Position numbers and translations under genes: made by a program. Shown here in pieces: positions 11,527-20,723 of a stretch of 64,000 bases of DNA (position 1 is the stretch's first letter; each line of letters opens with the position of its first letter). Where the stretch lies: the NCBI GenBank assembly GCA_001596155.1, contig CP014771.1, positions 3,968,001 through 4,032,000 of the forward strand, written 5' to 3'. This DNA is from Hymenobacter psoromatis. GTDB lineage: Bacteria; Bacteroidota; Bacteroidia; Cytophagales; Hymenobacteraceae. The notes below the pieces were generated by a model. That model was not told the DNA's origin and made no database searches. It was given only the letters and a program-made list of their open reading frames with translations.

Positions 11527-12627
11527 ATGACCGAACCAACCGCGCCACTTTCTACGCCCCTGCCACGGACTCAGCCCCGGCCGCGCCGCTGGGGCTGGCC
11601 CCTGGCGGTGCTGCTGCTGAGTGCGTTGGCCGGGGCGGGCGCGCTGGCCTACCGCCTGCTGTACGCGCCCAACGTGCCGGCCGCCGTGGACGGTGCGGCG
11701 TACCTGTACATTCGGAGGGGGGTAGGGCTGAACGCGGTGCTCGACTCGCTGCGGCAGCCCGGCATGCTGGACCGCCCCGCCGATTTTGCGCGGGTGGCGC
11801 GCTGGCGGGGCTTCGGCACGGCGGCCCATCTGGTGCGGCCGGGCCGCTACACGCTGCCGGCGGGCGCGGGCAACCTCGACCTGCTGCGCCTGCTCGAAAG
11901 CGGCCGGCAGGATACGCTGGCCTTCACCCTCAAGCCGTTTAACTACCTGCCGCAGTTGCCGCGCCAGGCTGGTCGCCAGCTTAGCATAGATACTACCCAG
12001 CTGCATAAGTTATTGACTGATAATGCGTATTTGACTCGCCGCTACGGCCTCGATACGGCCACCATACGTACGCTCTTCATTCCCGGCACGCTGCGGCTGT
12101 TCTGGCCCACGCCGGCGGTGGCCTTCCTCGATTCGGTAGCGATGCGGCACCGGCGCTTCTGGAACGGCCGGCGGCTGGCCGAGGCTGACTCCCTTCACCT
12201 GAGTCCCGTGCAGGTGGCGGTGCTGGCCAGCATCGTGCAGCGCGAAACGGCCCAGCCCCTCGACCGGCCCGTCATCGCGGGCGTGTATCTCAACCGTCTG
12301 CGCCGCGGCCAGCCCCTGCAGGCCGACCCTACCCTGCTCTGGCCGCTGCACGGCCTCGGCACCCGCAAGCGCGTGCTCAACGTGGATAAAAAAGTTGATT
12401 CGCCCTACAACACTTACCGCCACAAGGGCTTGCCGCCCGGCCCCATCACCACGCCCTACCCCCAGGCCCTGGACGCGGTGCTGCGCCCGGCGCACCACAA
12501 CTTCGTCTTCTTCTGCGCCCGCCCCGATGGCAGCGGCTTTTCCGATTTCAGCGAAACCTTTGCCCAACACAAGGCCTTCGCCCGCCGCTTTCAGCATCAT
12601 TTAGATAGCTTGAAAATCAAGCGATAG
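11527..12627 (+). CDS. mltG: Endolytic murein transglycosylase MltG (YceG-like)
   Basis: Inner-membrane lytic transglycosylase that cuts nascent glycan strands and sets their length during cell-wall synthesis. 366 residues from ATG 11527. A proline/arginine-rich cytoplasmic tail is followed by one transmembrane helix (about residues 23-43, WPLAVLLLSALAGAGALAY), then the YceG fold. The family signature is clear: catalytic Glu at about residue 240 in LASIVQRETAQ, then IAGVYLNRLRRGQPLQADPT, DSPYNTYRHKGLPPGPI and a C-terminal FFCARPDGSGFSDFSETF. An upstream in-frame GTG at 11503 would add eight residues but is not needed. Downstream, a family B palindrome starts at the last base of the stop codon. 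Confidence 0.93.
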   Translation: MTEPTAPLSTPLPRTQPRPRRWGWPLAVLLLSALAGAGALAYRLLYAPNVPAAVDGAAYLYIRRGVGLNAVLDSLRQPGMLDRPADFARVARWRGFGTAAHLVRPGRYTLPAGAGNLDLLRLLESGRQDTLAFTLKPFNYLPQLPRQAGRQLSIDTTQLHKLLTDNAYLTRRYGLDTATIRTLFIPGTLRLFWPTPAVAFLDSVAMRHRRFWNGRRLAEADSLHLSPVQVAVLASIVQRETAQPLDRPVIAGVYLNRLRRGQPLQADPTLLWPLHGLGTRKRVLNVDKKVDSPYNTYRHKGLPPGPITTPYPQALDAVLRPAHHNFVFFCARPDGSGFSDFSETFAQHKAFARRFQHHLDSLKIKR

Positions 12628-12763
12628 TCGTCTGTCATTGCGAGCGCAACGAAGTGGAGCGCGGCAATCTTTCCTGGCCGGCCGCATACATTGAATTTAC
12701 TAACCCAGATGTGAAGGAAAGATTGCCGCGCTCCACTTCGTTGCGCTCGCAATGACAGACGAC
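12627..12763 (+). repeat. palindromic repeat family B
   Basis: 137-bp palindrome with arms GTCGTCTGTCATTGCGAGCG / CGCTCGCAATGACAGACGAC, extended inward by CAACGAAGTGGAGCGCGGCA and its complement. A second copy is at 35995-36126. It fills the gap between mltG and dtd and starts on the final G of the mltG stop codon. Confidence 0.85.
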
Positions 12764-12785
12764 ATTAATCTTTAATCACTGAAAA

Positions 12786-13232
12786 ATGCGTCTCGTAATT
12801 CAGCGCGTCCGCGAAGCCTCCGTCACCGTGGAGGACACCATTACCGGCCAGATTGGCCCCGGCCTGCTGGTGCTGGTCGGCTGCGCGCCCACCGACGACG
12901 AGGCCGCCCTGGCCTGGATGGCCCGCAAGCTCGTCGGCCTGCGCATCTTCAACGACGACCACGGCCAGATGAACCGTAGCGTGCGCGACGTGGGCGGCCA
13001 GGTGCTGGTAGTGAGCCAGTTTACGCTGCTGGCCGATGCGCGCAAGGGCAACCGCCCCAGCTACAGCGGGGCCGCGCCGCCCGCCGTGGCCGCGCCGCTC
13101 TACGAGCGCTTCGTGGCCCTCACGGCGCGGGAGCTGGGCCAGCCGGTGCCCACCGGCATCTTCGGGGCCGACATGCAGGTGCGCCTCCTCAACGATGGCC
13201 CGGTGACGATTGTGCTGGATTCACCCGCCTGA
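12786..13232 (+). CDS. dtd: D-aminoacyl-tRNA deacylase
   Basis: Cytoplasmic proofreading enzyme that hydrolyses D-aminoacyl-tRNA (and Gly-tRNAAla), releasing the free tRNA. 148 residues, the usual DTD length. The start [15 protein letters not shown] is typical. Both family motifs are present: SQFTL at about residues 79-83, and the C-terminal cross-subunit motif, here NDGPVT at about 137-142 within [16 protein letters not shown]. The enzyme acts as a homodimer. It follows mltG on the same strand but is separated by a 137-bp palindrome, so co-transcription is uncertain. Confidence 0.96.
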
Positions 13233-13240
13233 TTTCTGCG

Positions 13241-13247
13241 TACTTTG
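13241..13247 (+). promoter_or_regulatory. candidate -7 box upstream of the DUF433/DUF5615 pair
   Basis: Reads TACTTTG, a one-base-short variant of TAnnTTTG, ending 4 bases before ATG 13252. It points to a promoter of its own for the toxin-antitoxin pair and a leaderless or near-leaderless transcript. Confidence 0.4.
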
Positions 13248-13251
13248 CAGC

Positions 13252-13485
13252 ATGACTACCTACCTCACCGAGCGCATCACCGTGGACCCGGAACGGTGTT
13301 TTGGCAAGCCTACCGTTCGGGGTACCCGCTTGCAAGTTGATACCGTGTTAGGCTACCTGGCGGCCGGTGACACGCTGGCCGATATTCTGGAATCCTTCCC
13401 GACGCTGGAGCCGGCTGACATTCCAGCGTGCCTGGAATTTGCGCAGCAGATTATTCAGCAGCAGTTTGCGCAACAGGCCGCGTAG
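13252..13485 (+). CDS. DUF433 (VapB45-like) antitoxin
   Basis: Probable antitoxin of a type II toxin-antitoxin pair: a small winged-helix DNA-binding protein expected to neutralise the PIN-like partner and repress the operon. 77 residues. The DUF433 signature is present: ERITVDPERCFGKPTVRGTR near the N-terminus, then a helix-turn-helix-like stretch (VDTVLGYLAAGDTLADILES) and PTLEPADIPACLEFA. The start is ATG 13252; an upstream in-frame start at 13210 lies inside dtd and before the candidate promoter. The toxin gene begins 3 bases after this stop. Function is assigned from family and pairing. Confidence 0.88.
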   Translation: MTTYLTERITVDPERCFGKPTVRGTRLQVDTVLGYLAAGDTLADILESFPTLEPADIPACLEFAQQIIQQQFAQQAA

Positions 13486-13488
13486 TGC

Positions 13489-13794
13489 ATGGTGCGATTT
13501 CTAGTTGATATTAATCTGCCTTACCGATTTGCTTATTGGCGGGGTGAGGAGTTTTTACATCAGCGCGACCTGAACGAGCGCTGGCCAAATGTATCAATCC
13601 GGAAATATGCGGCTGACCACAACCTAACTATCATCACGAAGGATAAGGATTTCGCGCAGCTCATACGCCAGCAGGAGCCCCCACCGCGGGTTCTTTGGCT
13701 GCGAAGCGGCAGTTGTAGCTTGCGGCAGCTTCACCATTTTTTAGCGCCGCACTGGGAGCAGGCCCTAAGTTTACTTTTCAAGCACGCTAGTTAA
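13489..13794 (+). CDS. DUF5615 PIN-like toxin
   Basis: Putative ribonuclease toxin of the PIN-like DUF5615/Mut7-C-type family, partner of the DUF433 protein just upstream. 101 residues. Acidic residues expected in the active site are visible: D7 in FLVDINLPYR and the later TIITKDKDFAQL (about residues 47-57), followed by RVLWLRSG. The start is ATG 13489. The pair is compact, and base composition is somewhat more AT-rich than neighbouring dtd, compatible with horizontal acquisition (inference). Confidence 0.85.
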   Translation: MVRFLVDINLPYRFAYWRGEEFLHQRDLNERWPNVSIRKYAADHNLTIITKDKDFAQLIRQQEPPPRVLWLRSGSCSLRQLHHFLAPHWEQALSLLFKHAS

Positions 13795-14100
13795 AGCTAT
13801 GCCCTTTAGGGCAAGACTTTAGTTGCTACTCCCTTTCGCCGGCCTTGCTTATGCAAGAACGGTCAATTTTTGATTGTCAGTTAGTTATTGCTCTTTGCCC
13901 AACGACTGACGCTAGCGTTTCGCCAGCAGAATTTCATTCTAGAGCGGCCCACTTTCAGTGGCTTCTTTCAGCCGGCTTTAGCCGAAACCGCCGAATTCCA
14001 TTCGCTTTCAAACCTATGGACTTACAGTCCATAGTCGTTTAGTGCCAATCAGTAAGCTGGTTGCCATTGAACAGGCGGGCTTGGTAAGCAGCTGATTTTT
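13795..14100 (+). other. 306-bp gap with a cluster of short hairpins, no credible gene
   Basis: No convincing gene; a 65-codon open frame at 13845 has no family resemblance. Several small hairpins with 4-base loops occur in a row: GCCCTTTAGGGC, CCACTTTCAGTGG, GCCGGCTTTAGCCG and CTATGGACTTACAGTCCATAG. The repeated stem-TTTA/TTTC/TTAC-stem layout looks like remnants of one small repeat family. Confidence 0.45.
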
Positions 14101-14442
14101 ATGACAATTGAACAAGCCCAAGCCACTGTCGATGAGTGGATAACCACCACCGGCGTGCGCTATTTCAGCGAGCTAACCAACCTGGCCATTCTCACCGAAG
14201 AGGTGGGCGAGGTGGCGCGCCTCATCGCCCGGCAATACGGTGAGCAGTCGTTCAAGGACTCGGACCGGGGTAGGGAGTTGGGCGACGAGTTGGCCGATGT
14301 GTTGTTCGTGGTCATTTGCCTGGCCAACCAAACCGGCGTGAACCTCACTGACGCGCTGGCCCGCAACCTGGCCAAGAAAACCCAGCGCGACGCCACCCGC
14401 CACCGCGACAACCCAAAATTGGGGGCGAAGAAGGAAGAATGA
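14101..14442 (+). CDS. MazG-like nucleotide pyrophosphohydrolase
   Basis: Small all-alpha NTP pyrophosphohydrolase of the MazG/dUTPase superfamily, which hydrolyses (d)NTPs to monophosphate and pyrophosphate using Mg2+. 113 residues, a single-domain form. The metal-binding motif is clear: LTEEVGEVARLI (ExxE, about residues 36-47) and ELGDELADVLFVVICLAN (DELAD, about 61-78). The C-terminus is a basic tail. It could act in housekeeping nucleotide clean-up; the specific substrate cannot be assigned. A short family A hairpin follows the stop. Confidence 0.88.
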   Translation: MTIEQAQATVDEWITTTGVRYFSELTNLAILTEEVGEVARLIARQYGEQSFKDSDRGRELGDELADVLFVVICLANQTGVNLTDALARNLAKKTQRDATRHRDNPKLGAKKEE

Positions 14443-14472
14443 GGAATCATATTGTTTTCGGAGTATGCTGCG

Positions 14473-14519
14473 AAAAAAGAACGTCATTCCGAGCTTGTCG
14501 AGGAATGACGTTCTTTTTT
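14473..14519 (+). repeat. palindromic repeat family A (short form)
   Basis: 47-bp palindrome: AAAAAAGAACGTCATTCC and GGAATGACGTTCTTTTTT around a GAGCTTGTCGA core. With its T-run it would function as a bidirectional terminator between the MazG-like gene and anmK. Confidence 0.75.
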
Positions 14520-14565
14520 AATCAACTTGCTCAACGAGTATAATTTCTCCTTCCCAATTAACTCC

Positions 14566-15726
14566 ATGAACCCGCACCTAAGCCGCCTGCTGGCCGTGGC
14601 ACAGCAGCCCAGTCGCCGCATCATCGGCCTCATGTCGGGCACCTCGCTCGATGGCCTCGACGTGGCGCTGTGCCGCTGCACCGGCCACGACGCTGCGCTG
14701 CAAGTAACGATGGAACAGTTTGTTACGGTGCCGTATGAGGCGGCGTTTCAGGCGCGGCTGCGGGCCGTTAGTCAGCCGCGGGTTGACCTGGAAGAGGTGG
14801 TGCTGCTCAATGCGGAGGTGGCGCGCCGCCACGCGGCCACGGTGCTGGCTTGCCTGGCCGGGTGGGGGGTAGGGCCGGCCGAGGTCGATGTGTTGGCCAG
14901 CCACGGGCAGACCATCTGGCACGCGCCGCGCCACCAGCACGGCCGGGCCGACTTTCCGCACCACGCCACGCTGCAAATCGGCGACGGCGACCACCTGGCC
15001 GTGGGCACGGGCATTATCACGCTCTCCGATTTTCGGCAAAAGCACGTGGCCGCCGGCTTCGAGGGCGCGCCGCTGGCCCCGTTTGCCGACAAATTATTAT
15101 TCCGCCAGCCAGGAGTTAATCGCCTGCTGCTCAACTTGGGCGGCATCGCCAACTTCACGCTCTTGCCCGCCGACGGCGGCCCCGCCCAGGCCACCGACAC
15201 CGGCCCCGGCAACACGCTGCTCGACGCCGTGGTGCGCCAGCGCTACCCCGGCCAAGCCTACGACGAAGGCGGCCGCCTGGCCGCGCGGGGCCAGCCGCAC
15301 GCCGGGCTGCTGGCGGCCTTGCGCAGCCATTCGTTTTTCAGCGAGCCCTTCCCCAAAACCACTGGGCCGGAGCTTTTTTCACCGAATTATCTGGCTGAAA
15401 ACCAGCGCTGTACGGGCACAAAAAATTTATCGGTATCCGACCTGCTGGCCACGCTTATCGAGCTGAGCGCCGGGGCCGTGGCGCAGGGCGTGCGGCACTA
15501 CCTGGGCCCTGCGCCCGCCGCCGACGCGCTGGTGAGCGGTGGCGGCGCCCACAACGCCACGCTGCTGGCCGCCCTGGCCCGCCACCTGCCGGCCACCCGC
15601 CTGCGCAGCACCGCCGAGGCCGGCGTGCCGCCCGATGCCAAAGAAGCCGTGCTTTTCGCGGTGCTAGCCAATGAAGCGCTGGCGGGCAACGGCCTGAGCC
15701 TGGGCAAAATCTCCCTGCCCGGCTAA
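14566..15726 (+). CDS. anmK: Anhydro-N-acetylmuramic acid kinase
   Basis: Cytoplasmic kinase of peptidoglycan recycling: opens the 1,6-anhydro ring of anhMurNAc and phosphorylates it to MurNAc-6-phosphate. 386 residues, normal for the family. The ATP-binding P-loop of the ASKHA fold is clear (IIGLMSGTSLDGLDVAL, about residues 19-35), followed by VLASHGQTIWHAP, LNLGGIANFTLLP, ATDTGPGNTLLDAVV and the C-terminal DALVSGGGAHNATLL. ATG 14566 is chosen; the 13 upstream in-frame codons are non-conserved. Its 3' end overlaps the convergent gene at 15723 by 4 bases. MltG, encoded 2 kb upstream, makes the anhydro ends that feed this pathway. Confidence 0.95.
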   Translation: MNPHLSRLLAVAQQPSRRIIGLMSGTSLDGLDVALCRCTGHDAALQVTMEQFVTVPYEAAFQARLRAVSQPRVDLEEVVLLNAEVARRHAATVLACLAGWGVGPAEVDVLASHGQTIWHAPRHQHGRADFPHHATLQIGDGDHLAVGTGIITLSDFRQKHVAAGFEGAPLAPFADKLLFRQPGVNRLLLNLGGIANFTLLPADGGPAQATDTGPGNTLLDAVVRQRYPGQAYDEGGRLAARGQPHAGLLAALRSHSFFSEPFPKTTGPELFSPNYLAENQRCTGTKNLSVSDLLATLIELSAGAVAQGVRHYLGPAPAADALVSGGGAHNATLLAALARHLPATRLRSTAEAGVPPDAKEAVLFAVLANEALAGNGLSLGKISLPG

Positions 15727-16175
15727 CGCTGACGCCGCAGCCCGAAGCCTAGCACCGCCCGCGCCGTCGTGTCGCGAAACGTGACCTCCAGCAGCACCGG
15801 CGGCGGCCGGCGCGCCGAGTCGCTGGCAAACGTGAAGCGGCAAAACCACTGGCTGCTCACCCGCCCGGTCCCGAGCCGCACGCCCACCTGGTAGAGTTCG
15901 ATGGCTGGGCCGCGCGCCTGCCCCTGCTGCCACAGCGGCCGGGCGGCCGCCCCAAACGCCGCCAGCGGCACGCCCACCCGCACCTCGGGTGCCAGGCGGC
16001 GGTAGGCCGCCGGGTAGTCGGCCCGCAGCACTTCGCCCAAAAACCGCCGGGCCACCTGCGCCTGCGTCGGTGCGGGGGGGTAGGGCCGCGCCGCCGCCAG
16101 CAGCCCGGCGGCCAGCAGAACCAACGCAATGCCGCCCCAGGCACGCACTCTGCCGCCCGGAAAATAGTTGACCAT
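15723..16175 (-). CDS. Membrane-anchored or secreted hypothetical protein
   Basis: Unrecognised protein of 150 residues. An N-terminal hydrophobic segment (about residues 15-29, GGIALVLLAAGLLAA) gives a signal peptide or anchor. The rest looks like a small alpha/beta domain (QVARRFLGEVLRADYPAAYR...) of the kind seen in DUF3887/DUF4019-like proteins, but I cannot assign it. Convergent with anmK, overlapping by 4 bases. The ATG at 16173-16175 falls in the 5-bp direct repeat (CATAC) at the left edge of the 16178-20707 element, so the native upstream region has apparently been displaced. An in-frame GTG at 16185-16187 lies inside the element. Confidence 0.6.
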   Translation of the reverse strand: MVNYFPGGRVRAWGGIALVLLAAGLLAAARPYPPAPTQAQVARRFLGEVLRADYPAAYRRLAPEVRVGVPLAAFGAAARPLWQQGQARGPAIELYQVGVRLGTGRVSSQWFCRFTFASDSARRPPPVLLEVTFRDTTARAVLGFGLRRQR

Positions 16176-16177
16176 AC

Positions 16178-16220
16178 GGGGAAGCACCAGAGTTGGAACA
16201 GAAATTCCCGCTAAGATTAT
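16178..16220 (+). repeat. left terminal inverted repeat of the 16-20.7 kb element
   Basis: 43 bases matching 20460-20502 directly and the complement of 20665-20707, with mismatches only at positions 11, 15, 17 and 21. The block CAGAAATTCCCGCTAAGATT is identical in all copies. Confidence 0.8.
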
Positions 16221-17224
16221 AGGGAATGGTTGCTTTTCTAATACTTTCCAGTTGGTAAAGTAAGGTTAAGCGTCTTCAACTAGCATTAGCCGCTGCTTTA
16301 GCTAAGTTCCTGTACCTATTTGGTTGCCTGAAGCGGGCACTTCCAGGCAATGCCAGTTGAATTTCTCTGCTGCTACCACTACCGAAAATGAAAAAACACC
16401 TGGTGGCAGCCAAACCCTCGCCGGCCCGCTGAGCGTGCCCTACTGGCGTTTCCAGGCCCCTTAATCTTAGCCCTAGAGTGACCTACCCTACTAGCATTTC
16501 TCCGCCCGAAATTATTTTTTGGTTACGAAGGACTACCAGCCGAAATTGTTGCTATATTTGGGCCGTCTCCGCTCTCTGCCACGTCCGCCTAACTACCCGC
16601 GCCTCCGGGCCTCGTTTTGCCCCATGTACCCTACCCCTCCGTAGGGTTTCGTCTGACTTCGACTAGCCTAGCCCTAGCAGACTCGTGCCAGTACGTTTTC
16701 CGTAGCTTTCCCCTGCCGTCTTGTTGGCAGTGCCCATCTTCGCCCATGCTTCGCCGCGAGGAGCGTTCTCGGGGCCTCTATTAGCACTTTTCCGCTAACC
16801 GAAGTGTTCTGTTCTTTCCCTTTAGTTCTGGGAAAAGTTCCTTAACATAACAAGGGTTATAACCTCGACCTTGGAATAGTGGTTGGTTTTGGTTCACGTA
16901 GTCGCAGTTGCCGGCGTGGTACTTTGCTAGGGTTATCGCAACTCTTTTGAGCGATTTGTTGCCAGTCTTTGTTCTAGGCGAAGAAAGTTCACGAAAATAT
17001 CATCTCTGGCGAATCGGCCTGCAAAAGGCCACAGTAACAGCTTAACGCTGGCTTAGTGGGTTATTAAGTACTTATTGTATAAATATGTAGATTTCTATCC
17101 CGTGTGACGAGAAGTTTTACACTGTATATTAGGTACTTGCAACCAAAATCTGGCGGCGATGCTCTTTATACAAGGCCGCTGTGGCTCCTAGTCCCATTTC
17201 TTTTTCTCAAACGCTCCTCAGTTT
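16221..17224. other. about 1 kb with no recognisable gene
   Basis: Mixed-composition DNA inside the TIR-bounded element. Both strands are interrupted by frequent stops. The longest open frame (62 codons at 16478) has no family resemblance. Reading both strands, I see no transposase motif, tRNA or clear hairpin. It may hold a decayed gene or be untranslated. Confidence 0.5.
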
Positions 17225-17635
17225 ATGAAAGCTAACCAAATCCTTGCCCTGGCTGGCATTAGTATGCTAGCCATGAGTAACAGTTGCCACAAAGAAGATG
17301 CCTCTCCTGACCTCGGTTTAACAACTGGACGGCTGGTGAAGCTGGAAAACACAATTGATGGGGCTGGACAAAATCCGCGTCAGCGCTGGATTATAGACCT
17401 GGCCCCGTTATCTCTTCCTGGCTATCAGGGAACCCTTTACCAACAGGCTAAAGTGTTTAATCTGCCCACGAATACTACTTACCAGGCAGGGCAGAGTCTT
17501 TCGTTTCACTACCAGCTGGTACCCTTTGCGCAACAGACACCGTGGCGCACTACCTATGAATGGGGTAATGCTCACCCGACACCAGTGGGAGCAGATTCCT
17601 TACCCGAAATTACTGTTTCCGATGCCGCTAATTAA
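17225..17635 (+). CDS. Putative lipoprotein of unknown function
   Basis: 136 residues. The N-terminus MKANQILALAGISMLAMSNS is followed by Cys21, giving a Bacteroidota-like lipoprotein signal (SNSC, then HKED, the acidic residues at +2 to +4 often linked to surface export). The mature part is a short hydrophilic domain with beta-type sequence (QGTLYQQAKVFNLP, SLSFHYQLVPF); no family recognised. It lies 122 bases upstream of the large BNR-repeat protein on the same strand, so the two may form an operon. Its AT-rich codon use matches the rest of the element and differs from the flanking genes. Confidence 0.7.
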   Translation: MKANQILALAGISMLAMSNSCHKEDASPDLGLTTGRLVKLENTIDGAGQNPRQRWIIDLAPLSLPGYQGTLYQQAKVFNLPTNTTYQAGQSLSFHYQLVPFAQQTPWRTTYEWGNAHPTPVGADSLPEITVSDAAN

Positions 17636-17757
17636 GCATACAAACTCTAAGATAATGATTTAGTGGTAACCGAAGCGGCACGAGGATTTTATTCGTGCTA
17701 CCTAGCTAGTTCGCCTGCCTTTTATTATGTTTTTTCCCACCTTTACCCTCCTTTTCC

Positions 17758-20094
17758 ATGAAAAATGTCTACCAAACATTGGTTCACCGCCTAGGCACTG
17801 GTCGAGAAATCAAACTGCTATTAGGTTTCTTAGCCAGCGCTTCCGTTAGTCACGCGCAATCACTCGCTCCGCCCCATCCATATTTTGGATTTAAGGCTAT
17901 GCAGAGCCCTGGTACGACTCAAGTGGTTGTACCGCCAATTCAACCAGCTGCGCCAATGGTTAAGCAGTTCTCTGTTAATAAAGGATTCACAACCAACTCC
18001 TTGACTAACGGGCAGAATGATGACGTTCAGCTATTTCCGTCGAATAACTCTCAGTCGGAAGTGCATATTTCCATTGACAAGACAAATCCCAATAATTTAA
18101 TTGCCAGTTCAAATGTGTTCCTTAGTAATGGCGGTTTTTCTGTAGGCTATTATTACAGCACGAACGGGGCGCAAAGTTGGGCTGGTGGCGATAACCTTCC
18201 TAACAGTGGACAGACCACTGGTGACCCAGCCACAGCATACGATGCCGGTGGGCGGGCGTACCTAGTTAATATGGCTTCTAGTAGTGACGCGTACCGAGTG
18301 CAATCCTCTGGGGACAAAGGGAGTACTTGGACCAACCAAGTAGCGGGGTGCCCTGCCGAATACGAGTTTGACAAAGAAATGATTGCGGCCGATGATGTGC
18401 CCACCAGTCCATATAGCAACACGCTCTATACAGCTTGGACAATTTTTGCGGCAGATGGCGCTTCGACGATTAAAGTCAATCATTCTACTGACCGATTACA
18501 AGCAGTTCGAGGCCAGAACTTTTCGGCTCCTGTAACCTTGGTAAATCCTACAGCAGGCTACGATTCAGGTACGAATGTGCAAACCGGACCGAATGGCGAA
18601 GTTTATGTGTGCTGGGCTGATTATCCCACCCGTTCTGGCGCGTCCACAGGTGTTGGATTTACCCGCTCGACTGACGGCGGCAATAACTTTACAAGTCAAT
18701 CTATTGCATTTGCTAGAACTGGCATTGAAATAAACAGCATATTCCCAGACCCTTTGTTCAACAACACGCGAGTCAATGATTTTCCTGCGATGGCGGTGGA
18801 TAAGAGTAGTACCGCCCACCGGGGCCGTATTTACATTGTGTATCCAGCAAAGAATAATGGATTAAGTACAGGTAAAGCCGTTATTCAACTCCGCTATTCG
18901 GATAACCAAGGCAGCTCGTGGTCCGCTCCCGTTACGGTAAGTATTTCAAATGGTCAGCAGAATTGGTTTCCGTGGATAGCAGTAGATGACACGAACGGTG
19001 ATGTGAGTATTGCGTACTATAGCATGGATGGACCATCGGGGAGCTTCACCACCAACACTTATGTGGCTTACTCAGGTGACGGAGGAAGCTCCTTCTGTAA
19101 TTTGAAAGTGAGCGACGCCTCACATATTCCGGTAACTTCAGCCGGTCAACGCGTCGCCTCCGGTTACATGGGCGACTACATTGGCATTACGGCTTATGGA
19201 GGGAAAGCATATCCAACTTGGGCTGATAACCGCACTGGCACTAGTACTTATCAAGTGTACACCTCGCCGGTATCGTATGCAACTATTACCGGCCCTACCC
19301 AGATATGCATTAATAATACTGCAACTTACAGCGCTGCTCTTGTGACTGGTGCAAGTGTTAGTTGGTCTTCTTCCGATACGGGCATTGCCACCATTAATTC
19401 ATCTACGGGAACGGCGACAGGTGTCGCACAGGGAAGCGTTACGTTCACTGCCACGGTTACGACTAGCTGTGGAACAACGTTAACCCGCACCAAAACTGTC
19501 CAAATCGGTGCTACCACAGCCACTGGCACGTATTCTAACGGTCCCTATGGTACCCGCACTCCCTTGGCCGGGTCCTATCAGTTCGTTCCCGCTAACCAGA
19601 CATATTATATCTGGATGGACCAGCCCTACAACTTTACTTTTTCTCTTGTCGGCCCTAATGGAACGAATACAAATATAAATATAAATATAACTGGTCCCCA
19701 GACTTGTAATTTTACCTTTCCGGGGTCCAGTGTCCAACTCAATGCCACTGCTACTTCTGGCAGTGCTTGTGGCTCTACCTTATCGTCCGTATTCGTAGCT
19801 CCTTACGGCAGCTATGCGATGACGCCAAATCCGGCAAGCTCGGAACTCACGGTGACGAACACTGCGCCGGACTTGGCAGCTCAGTATCAGCTCAAAGACG
19901 CTGATAAAGCGCACATACCTGATATGCCGTTCGATGCAGACTTGTATGACATGTACGGCAAGAAAGTTAAGTCACTGACCAACGTGCAAGGAAAGGGTAT
20001 ATTTGATGTGAGCAGCTTGCCCGCTGGCCTTTACAATCTGCGAGTGGGTAAGGGCAAAGACATGCACATGGAACACGTTCAGATTGTGCATTAG
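17758..20094 (+). CDS. Secreted sialidase-like BNR-repeat protein with Ig-like domain and T9SS sorting domain
   Basis: Extracellular protein of 778 residues. Signal peptide (cleavage near SHAQ, residue about 34), then a region to about residue 510 with sialidase/BNR-type repeats: SxDxGxxW-like motifs YYSTNGAQSWAGG, QSSGDKGSTWTNQ, TRSTDGGNNFTSQ, RYSDNQGSSWSAP and YSGDGGSSFCN. Next come a bacterial Ig-like (Big_2) domain (about 515-585, VSWSSSDTGIATINSSTGTA) and a C-terminal T9SS type A sorting domain (about 690-778: NPASSELTVTN ... LYDMYGKKVKSL ... LPAGLYNLRVGKG). Catalytic sialidase residues are not obvious, so it could be a binding protein. Codon use is AT-rich compared with neighbours outside the element. 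Confidence 0.85.
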   Translation: MKNVYQTLVHRLGTGREIKLLLGFLASASVSHAQSLAPPHPYFGFKAMQSPGTTQVVVPPIQPAAPMVKQFSVNKGFTTNSLTNGQNDDVQLFPSNNSQSEVHISIDKTNPNNLIASSNVFLSNGGFSVGYYYSTNGAQSWAGGDNLPNSGQTTGDPATAYDAGGRAYLVNMASSSDAYRVQSSGDKGSTWTNQVAGCPAEYEFDKEMIAADDVPTSPYSNTLYTAWTIFAADGASTIKVNHSTDRLQAVRGQNFSAPVTLVNPTAGYDSGTNVQTGPNGEVYVCWADYPTRSGASTGVGFTRSTDGGNNFTSQSIAFARTGIEINSIFPDPLFNNTRVNDFPAMAVDKSSTAHRGRIYIVYPAKNNGLSTGKAVIQLRYSDNQGSSWSAPVTVSISNGQQNWFPWIAVDDTNGDVSIAYYSMDGPSGSFTTNTYVAYSGDGGSSFCNLKVSDASHIPVTSAGQRVASGYMGDYIGITAYGGKAYPTWADNRTGTSTYQVYTSPVSYATITGPTQICINNTATYSAALVTGASVSWSSSDTGIATINSSTGTATGVAQGSVTFTATVTTSCGTTLTRTKTVQIGATTATGTYSNGPYGTRTPLAGSYQFVPANQTYYIWMDQPYNFTFSLVGPNGTNTNININITGPQTCNFTFPGSSVQLNATATSGSACGSTLSSVFVAPYGSYAMTPNPASSELTVTNTAPDLAAQYQLKDADKAHIPDMPFDADLYDMYGKKVKSLTNVQGKGIFDVSSLPAGLYNLRVGKGKDMHMEHVQIVH

Positions 20095-20157
20095 GATGCT
20101 GCGAAGGCTAGCTGCTCTAGCTCCAACCCGCAGCTAGTTTCGCGCCACCAGCTTTAT

Positions 20158-20191
20158 AAAAAGGCCCTGCTAGTGAAGCAGGGCCTTTTTT
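20158..20191 (+). terminator. intrinsic terminator after the BNR-repeat gene
   Basis: Hairpin with arms AAAAAGGCCCTGC and GCAGGGCCTTTTTT, 64 bases past the stop at 20094. Confidence 0.85.
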
Positions 20192-20459
20192 GTTTCCGTC
20201 CAGCAGGCCCACAAGCCCATATGGGGTGCTTTTAGTAGGCGAACATAATCCTACGCTAAACAGTAAAGGCCGTCTCAAAAAGTCAATCACCGAGGTCAAA
20301 CCAAACCATTGATTCATGAGATGGCCAAAAAACACATTCTTAGAAGGTTATAAACGGCTAATTTGAGAGCCCTTCTTGCGTTCTGTTAAACGCCCATTTT
20401 CTGAGATGCCAGCTTAAAAAGTGCATCCACTTCATCTAATGGGCGTTTTACTAGCTTAG
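20192..20459. other. non-coding DNA with nested short inverted repeats
   Basis: No gene seen. Two imperfect palindromes are visible: GGCCGTCTCA ... TGAGATGGCC (about 20269-20325) and AAACGCCCATT ... AATGGGCGTTT (about 20389-20449). They may be remnants of small elements stacked at the right end of the insertion. Confidence 0.45.
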
Positions 20460-20707
20460 GGGGAAGCACAAGACTAGGAGCAGAAATTCCCGCTAAGATT
20501 ATGCGCTATGTTCAATAGGTGCCTTACAGGTGTTCAGATGGCTGTTAACACTTTTAAAACCACCGTTTAGAAAATGTTAGCACACCCACTATCCCCTATG
20601 TCAGGTCCATTTTTAGCCTAGCTGGCCAATCAAGTTCCTGCGAGCATTATATTGAACATAGCGCATAATCTTAGCGGGAATTTCTGCTCCTAGTCTTGTG
20701 CTTCCCC
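20460..20707. repeat. 248-bp MITE-like element with 58-bp perfect terminal inverted repeats
   Basis: Bases 20460-20517 are the exact reverse complement of 20650-20707 (58 of 58). The ends are GGGGAAGCAC / GTGCTTCCCC. The interior of about 130 bases codes for nothing recognisable. No direct repeat flanks this inner copy (CTTAG on the left, CATAC on the right). Its right end doubles as the right end of the larger 16178-20707 element. Confidence 0.85.
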
Positions 20708-20723
20708 CATACCCAAAAATAGA

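Follow-up and report, generated by a model that had tools for sequence, protein, structure and literature searches.

A probable non-autonomous composite Tn3-family transposon carrying genes for probable exported proteins in Hymenobacter psoromatis

How does a block of two genes that differs strongly in composition from its surroundings, and that holds no transposase gene, come to stand next to anmK on the chromosome of Hymenobacter psoromatis? A first-pass annotation of the window (the whole 64,000-nucleotide stretch that was analysed) had proposed a non-autonomous element with secreted-protein cargo, bounded by terminal repeats, with CATAC on each side and without a transposase. We examined the borders of the block, its site in relatives, its arms and cargo, and the elements elsewhere that have the same ends.

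Borders, composition and empty site

Read directly, the left border consists of CATAC from 16173 followed by GGGGAAGCAC, which starts at 16178; on the right GTGCTTCCCC runs up to 20707 and is followed by CATAC at 20708–20712. The transposed unit is 16178–20707, about 4.5 kb, and its borders comprise:

16173–16177 (no strand): left copy of the target duplication, CATAC, from the sequence and from the single CATGC at the empty site in genome G034
20708–20712 (no strand): right copy of the target duplication, CATAC, from the sequence directly
16178–16215 (+ strand): left 38-bp Tn3-family terminal repeat, 34/38 identical to the right end
20670–20707 (− strand): right (outer) 38-bp Tn3-family terminal repeat, from comparison of the ends

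The repeats and the paired CATAC are thus present as first described, and no TnpA match was found inside the block at E 0.001. Both 38-bp ends have the form GGGG...CGCTAAG, and the end pattern GGGG...TAAG is a hallmark of Tn3. The outer repeats are 91% identical over 43 bp, or 34/38 over the Tn3-length end, Tn3-type ends being 38 bp long according to the available part of PMC4133298. A third copy of the end lies inside the block at 20459–20517; it is a perfect 59-bp inverted match to 20650–20708, with 132 bp between. There are three copies of the inner 23-mer (up to three mismatches) in the window; 100 shuffles gave a mean of 0.00. The first-pass annotation had given 43–58 bp as the length of a repeat recognised by a transposase. 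Its outer 43 bp stand. The 58-bp figure goes with a separate unit at the right end, a Tn3-derived miniature element (TIME) of 250 bp, and what is common to the transposons of relatives is an end of 38 bp.

By its 38-bp terminal inverted repeats beginning with GGGG and its 5-bp target duplication (CATAC/CATAC, in single copy at the empty site) the block belongs with the Tn3 family. A TnpA with a Tn3 DDE domain is linked to these ends in the elements of relatives, not inside the block. An autonomous Tn3 transposon encodes its own tnpA; the block has a six-codon stub only.

Is the block also set apart by composition? Its G+C content is 0.483, whereas the remainder of the window has 0.630; 1008 equally long stretches were sampled outside the block, and the lowest of them had 0.598. 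The GC3 of the two cargo genes is 0.46–0.47, that of nine flanking genes 0.73–0.87. Both the block and its codon use are AT-richer than the flanks, as had been claimed.

What did the site look like before the insertion? G034, probably Hymenobacter sp. UV11, is the closest relative at the locus by identity (87–89%). The joined flanks of the window align to it at 82%, straight across the junction, and G034 has one CATGC in place of the window's CATAC–block–CATAC. The insertion lies at the start codon of a small gene on the other strand (15723–16175), which adjoins anmK and whose ATG falls within the left CATAC. Of 29 loci examined in relatives, 13 show this small leftward gene, the 16 without it being left uncounted, and one of the 13 (L048) ends too soon to show the neighbour. 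In all 12 loci so counted the cargo is absent from the site, the gap to the neighbour is at most about 250 bp, and the neighbour is ftsB, a CARDB gene or a 37–44% relative of the latter. Neither cargo gene was matched in any of the 29 loci. The empty site that the first-pass annotation had proposed to look for therefore exists, and the block was inserted as one unit. No relative was found with the same block at another site, its movement being seen only as presence or absence.

Two further observations concern the neighbourhood. G034 has about 0.85 kb extra between anmK and the small leftward gene (L083 1549–2394), absent from the window; this extra sequence sits away from the junction. The 6.4-kb contig G000:C2:1–6421 (L085) is a palindrome of window positions 12627–15928 at more than 99% identity, probably an assembly artefact.

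Left arm, cargo and right end

From what kind of element does each end derive? The part of the block upstream of the cargo contains:

16178–16366 (+ strand): left arm, the tnpA-side end of a Tn3-family transposon, aligned over 189 bp without gaps at 76% to the G034 transposon
16350–16367 (+ strand): tnpA stub, a start codon and codons MPVEFL as in the G034 TnpA, after which homology ends
16815–16925 (+ strand): intergenic sequence of about 110 bp, repeated across the genus, upstream of the cargo, in 28/120 genus genomes (alignment of 21 copies)

The G034 counterpart of the left arm is L065 16595–16407. Beyond codon 6, tblastn found no trace of tnpA in the block. That the 0.85 kb of non-coding sequence in the left arm might be a decayed tnpA was rejected, since tblastn gave only the six-codon stub there. 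The left end was also considered as a second, degenerate TIME; the sole hint of this, a 20-bp, 80% inverted match between 16210–16229 and 16452–16471, is too weak.

The sequence of about 110 bp follows the pattern CTTAACATAA...GTTATAA...CCT(T/C)GGAAT...GCCGGCGTGGTACTTT. It is not specific to the block, and the count of 28 genomes includes its own; further copies lie at L116 3412–3516, at L117 3698–3818 and in L118–L135. A same-strand frame begins 129–311 bp after its start in 10 of the 22 contexts listed. It could be a regulatory or repeat element. A structured RNA was rejected, the consensus fold of the 21 copies being nearly structureless and Rfam giving nothing at the position.

The cargo consists of:

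17225–17635 (+ strand): cargo gene 1, for a 136-aa probable lipoprotein with no Pfam family (list of open reading frames, Pfam search)
17758–20094 (+ strand): cargo gene 2, for a 778-aa protein with the T9SS sorting tail PF18962, above the Pfam cut-off
20158–20190 (no strand): inverted repeat ending in a T-run, a probable cargo-gene terminator (sequence and self-match)

These two genes are the only frames of at least 100 aa lying within the block, and both products are probably exported. The smaller has a signal-like start with a Cys, which we take to be a lipoprotein motif. The larger had been called a T9SS-exported BNR/Ig-like protein, alongside a lipoprotein. The T9SS tail bears this out and the lipoprotein is probable; the matches to BNR-like repeats (PF13088) and to an Ig-like domain (PF02368) both fall below the Pfam cut-off. 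Four Asp-box-like motifs are present in the larger protein. Some match to it occurs in 32/120 genus genomes (its own included), mostly to the C-terminal part among the matches listed. Homologues of the cargo number at least 416 proteins among 7997 scored candidates. The best relative among the matches listed is 76% identical over 76%, and the few listed homologues that bear an organism name are all from Bacteroidota. One of the 120, G052, has a like gene pair, 59% and 52% identical, without such an end within about 1.5 kb.

The one Rfam match, a weak one to OrzO-P at 20159–20226, scores 29.7 bits where the threshold is 60, and it coincides in part with the probable terminator. Between cargo and TIME, at 20269–20325, we noted by eye an imperfect inverted repeat, GGCCGTCTCA...TGAGATGGCC, perhaps the relic of another insertion sequence.

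The right end is occupied by:

20459–20708 (no strand): TIME, 250 bp, with two 59-bp perfect inverted arms (self-comparison)
20544–20581 (no strand): 38-bp dyad inside the TIME, a probable resolution site, matching the G034 resolvase-gene site

Under strict 38-bp ends the TIME is 20460–20707. It is a short element with Tn3 ends and has no frame of 100 aa or more. The exact direct repeat stands at the outer pair of ends only; the TIME's own pair is flanked by CTTAG and CATAC, as expected of a TIME that is now part of a larger unit. Direct repeats are reported for only four database TIMEs in the available part of PMC4133298.

What might the dyad do? In the G034 transposon its counterpart (L065 1875–1912) overlaps the longest resolvase frame at the 5' end; the resolvase domain of that frame begins at residue 27. 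With up to three mismatches the dyad occurs at only two places in 120 genus genomes including its own: in the block and at the G034 resolvase gene. A gapped version is present in the TIME of a second element in the same genome, and a partial one in a G109 locus. On our reading, the dyad in the TIME would be a working resolution site.

Short inverted pairs of such ends, 248–315 bp long, numbered 10 in 56 scanned sequences, the pairs of the block and of the second element included; 121 kb of shuffled sequence held no end-like site. Exact repeats, TATCA and CTATT, flank two of the ten, both 271 bp and from Hymenobacter sp. ISL-91, and matching flanks are missing in eight. TIME-like inverted pairs without matching flanks were seen, for instance, at L002 5933–6205 (273 bp) and L082 3214–3528 (315 bp).

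Elements with the same ends

If the block lacks a transposase, where are its ends found together with one? Ends of the same type bound Tn3-family transposons of 7.4 to 29.4 kb in 12 other Hymenobacter genomes (12 inward-facing pairs, one per genome, picked by eye from the list of end matches). The first-pass annotation had suggested a search for a transposase with such ends; it is a Tn3-family TnpA, and it lies in transposons that have the same 38-bp repeats as borders. Left and right ends of the 12 elements are identical at 35–38 of 38 positions, and only the two outermost end copies were found in each. Exact 5-bp duplications flank nine of them; matching flanks are missing in the other three (G089, G079 and G031), and the G031 element fills its contig to the borders.

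Searched with the G034 TnpA, six of the 12 (G034, G102, G067, G021, G031 and G097) proved to have a TnpA that is open and near full length. That of G089 is full length with two stops, that of G073 split and that of G093 partial; the G079 element gave no match to this query, and those of G027 and G016 were matched over the first 71 residues only. The last two, equal in length and with the same duplication, probably share one insertion. The four TnpAs tested all have PF01526 and PF13700 and are mutually 73–92% alike; all three resolvases or recombinases tested have PF00239. Among plasmids, the G034 TnpA is matched best in Hymenobacter (70–75%) and Deinococcus (up to 63%). The TIME end is matched in 37/198 genomes, its own among them, and these all belong to a single genus out of 56 searched; at most four candidates were scored in most genomes, so that end counts per genome are lower bounds. 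A degenerate end pattern run across the genome collection hit 50 stretches (the own genome may be left out), all 50 titled Hymenobacter.

Two of these elements may be compared directly with the block. The autonomous G034 transposon (15.5 kb) has ends, left arm and resolution dyad as in the block; it also has a full tnpA and a resolvase gene, whereas the block has neither. The 12.5-kb element of G016 and of G027, the latter probably Hymenobacter sp. ISL-91 (G027:C13:24840–37360; L072), has ends like the block's, the exact duplication CACTA and a cargo. It is like the block in keeping the start only of tnpA; in contrast, it has no TIME at its right end, and its cargo is for metal efflux (ZIP, cation efflux, P-type ATPase, RND efflux).

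Does the own genome hold anything similar? A second element, G000:C3:1819598–1825426 (5829 bp), carries different cargo frames (510 and 182 aa) and no tnpA. Its flanks, AAGCA and AAACA, are a duplication with one mismatch, and G034 has the empty site, in which AAGCA leads directly to the downstream bases. The two flanking genes are adjacent in 10 of 16 relatives (in L147 only partly); in the other six the left flanking gene does not appear in the stretch examined. A TIME forms its right side; on the left stand 104 bp of TIME (L001 4599–4702), cut at, or within 1–2 bases of, the dyad centre. A recombinase-made junction would fit this cut.

By eye, further frames of the second element resemble pieces of another transposase. 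A left arm common to both elements was rejected: the strongest stretch (window 16780–16858) overlaps the genus-wide repeat and so gives no evidence of common descent, and a further match (53 bp, 72%, E 0.004) is weak. A self-complementary repeat of about 160 bp, about 80% alike between copies, lies at L001 5128–5288 and L116 3146–3305, both in the own genome.

The own genome yielded no related TnpA; its single PF01526 match is on contig C1. As a source acting in trans this C1 TnpA was rejected: it is 28–33% identical to the related TnpAs, and its 632-aa frame is without PF13700, so that no enzyme of the related type is now found in the genome. In the surrounding 10 kb, 10 inverted pairs were found, all without a Tn3 end of the GGGG type.

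Origin of the block and its place among known elements

How, then, was the block put together and moved? The borders, the 5-bp duplication, the empty site, the homology of the ends to TnpA-bearing transposons and the tnpA stub are established, and the block is part TIME composite, part beheaded Tn3 transposon. We give a probability of about 0.72 to its being a non-autonomous composite Tn3-family transposon that was moved by TnpA in trans. The left end would derive from the tnpA side of an autonomous Tn3-family transposon, with tnpA cut after six codons, and the right end would be the outer end of the 250-bp TIME. A Tn3-type TnpA acting in trans would have recognised two ends, the left one of 38 bp and the outer one of the TIME, skipping the inner TIME end, and everything between, the two AT-rich cargo genes included, would have moved into CATAC next to anmK. 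The presumed source of this TnpA is an element of, for example, the G034 type that has since been lost or was only passing through, and the insertion would have been replicative, with a cointegrate. The loss of tnpA may, on the other hand, have occurred only after insertion. Empty site, ends and composition all support the earlier proposal of a non-autonomous element with secreted-protein cargo; the Tn3 family, the tnpA stub, the TIME with its res-like dyad and the second element are additions to it.

Could the block have arrived with a transposase of its own? A full autonomous transposon, with cargo and a TIME-type right end, would then have inserted by its own enzyme and not in trans, and tnpA (and the resolvase gene) would have been deleted later. 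The left arm does keep the start of tnpA, autonomous relatives hold tnpA and other genes between the same ends, and broken or partial tnpA genes exist elsewhere (G089, G073, G093). However, tblastn finds no trace of tnpA past codon 6; the TIME at the right end is complete, inner end included, whereas the 12 elements of relatives show outermost ends only; and a second element of like build without tnpA is present in the same genome. The G027/G016 element with its tnpA stub shows only that such elements persist. We regard decay in place as unlikely, though it deserves to be taken seriously.

Far less probable are the two accounts in which the block never moved as a unit. A decayed transposon end on the left and a TIME on the right might be unrelated insertions sharing five flanking bases by chance, given that the TIME is complete in itself and that free TIME-like pairs occur in the genus. 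But five bases agree exactly by chance about once in 1000 (4 to the 5th), the flanks of the TIME's own pair do not match, and the empty site, joined exactly at the outer ends with one target copy, contradicts this account, to which we give very little credence. The genes might otherwise be ancestral and native, lost in relatives, with incidental repeats, and the like pair in G052 with no such end nearby would agree with this. The absence of the cargo at the locus in 12/12 relatives and the empty site of G034 contradict it, the composition is strongly different, and precise losses at transposon ends that leave one target copy are implausible; we hold such an origin to be extremely improbable.

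Where does the non-autonomous composite, our preferred reading, stand among known elements? TIMEs and TIME composites are already described in the available parts of PMC4133298 (2014) and PMC13367494 (2026). The latter takes 5- or 6-bp repeats at the outermost ends as a sign of past movement, and the block, with its outermost 5-bp repeats, bears this sign. Like the TIME-COMPs of these two papers, as far as their available text goes, the block has Tn3-type outer ends, a 5-bp duplication and a cargo core without transposase, and its TIME is about 250 bp long with a putative res site inside, as in TIME244 and IS101. A TIME-COMP is bounded by two TIME copies; the block has a TIME at the right and a transposon end at the left, and by definition it is therefore not a TIME-COMP. 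The hosts described in that text are Pseudomonas and Enterobacteriaceae, whereas the block is in Hymenobacter (Bacteroidota). TIME-RES, in the available part of PMC4133298, is likewise a hybrid of TIME and Tn3-transposon sequence without tnpA, but it carries a resolvase gene; the block, by contrast, has genes for exported proteins and no more than a res-like dyad.

In the available text of the open-licence literature we found no earlier report of a TIME for Bacteroidota, the term match being a mine-plasmid survey. That literature also yielded no Hymenobacter report of a Tn3-family transposon or MITE and no report of Tn3-family miniature inverted-repeat elements in Bacteroidetes. The kind of the block is known and the variant uncommon; neither its hybrid ends nor its host phylum was found there.

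Is the block part of a wider pattern? Tentatively, and with more doubt than confidence, we suggest that in Hymenobacter the loss of tnpA from Tn3-family transposons may be a recurrent event, the remainders living on as carriers of cargo with a tnpA-stub arm or a TIME arm, and that one mobile TnpA family may serve a standing, trans-dependent set that shuffles surface, exported and metal-efflux genes within the genus. The block itself provides a precise case, empty site included, of exported-protein genes on a transposase-less Tn3-type unit in Bacteroidota, and the putative resolution site that its TIME has in common with the G034 transposon links a TIME to a probable parent. Units of this sort, having no transposase gene, easily escape annotation, a point that the available part of PMC13367494 makes for MITEs and TIMEs. 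The share of accessory secreted proteins moved in this way in Bacteroidota may therefore be underestimated.
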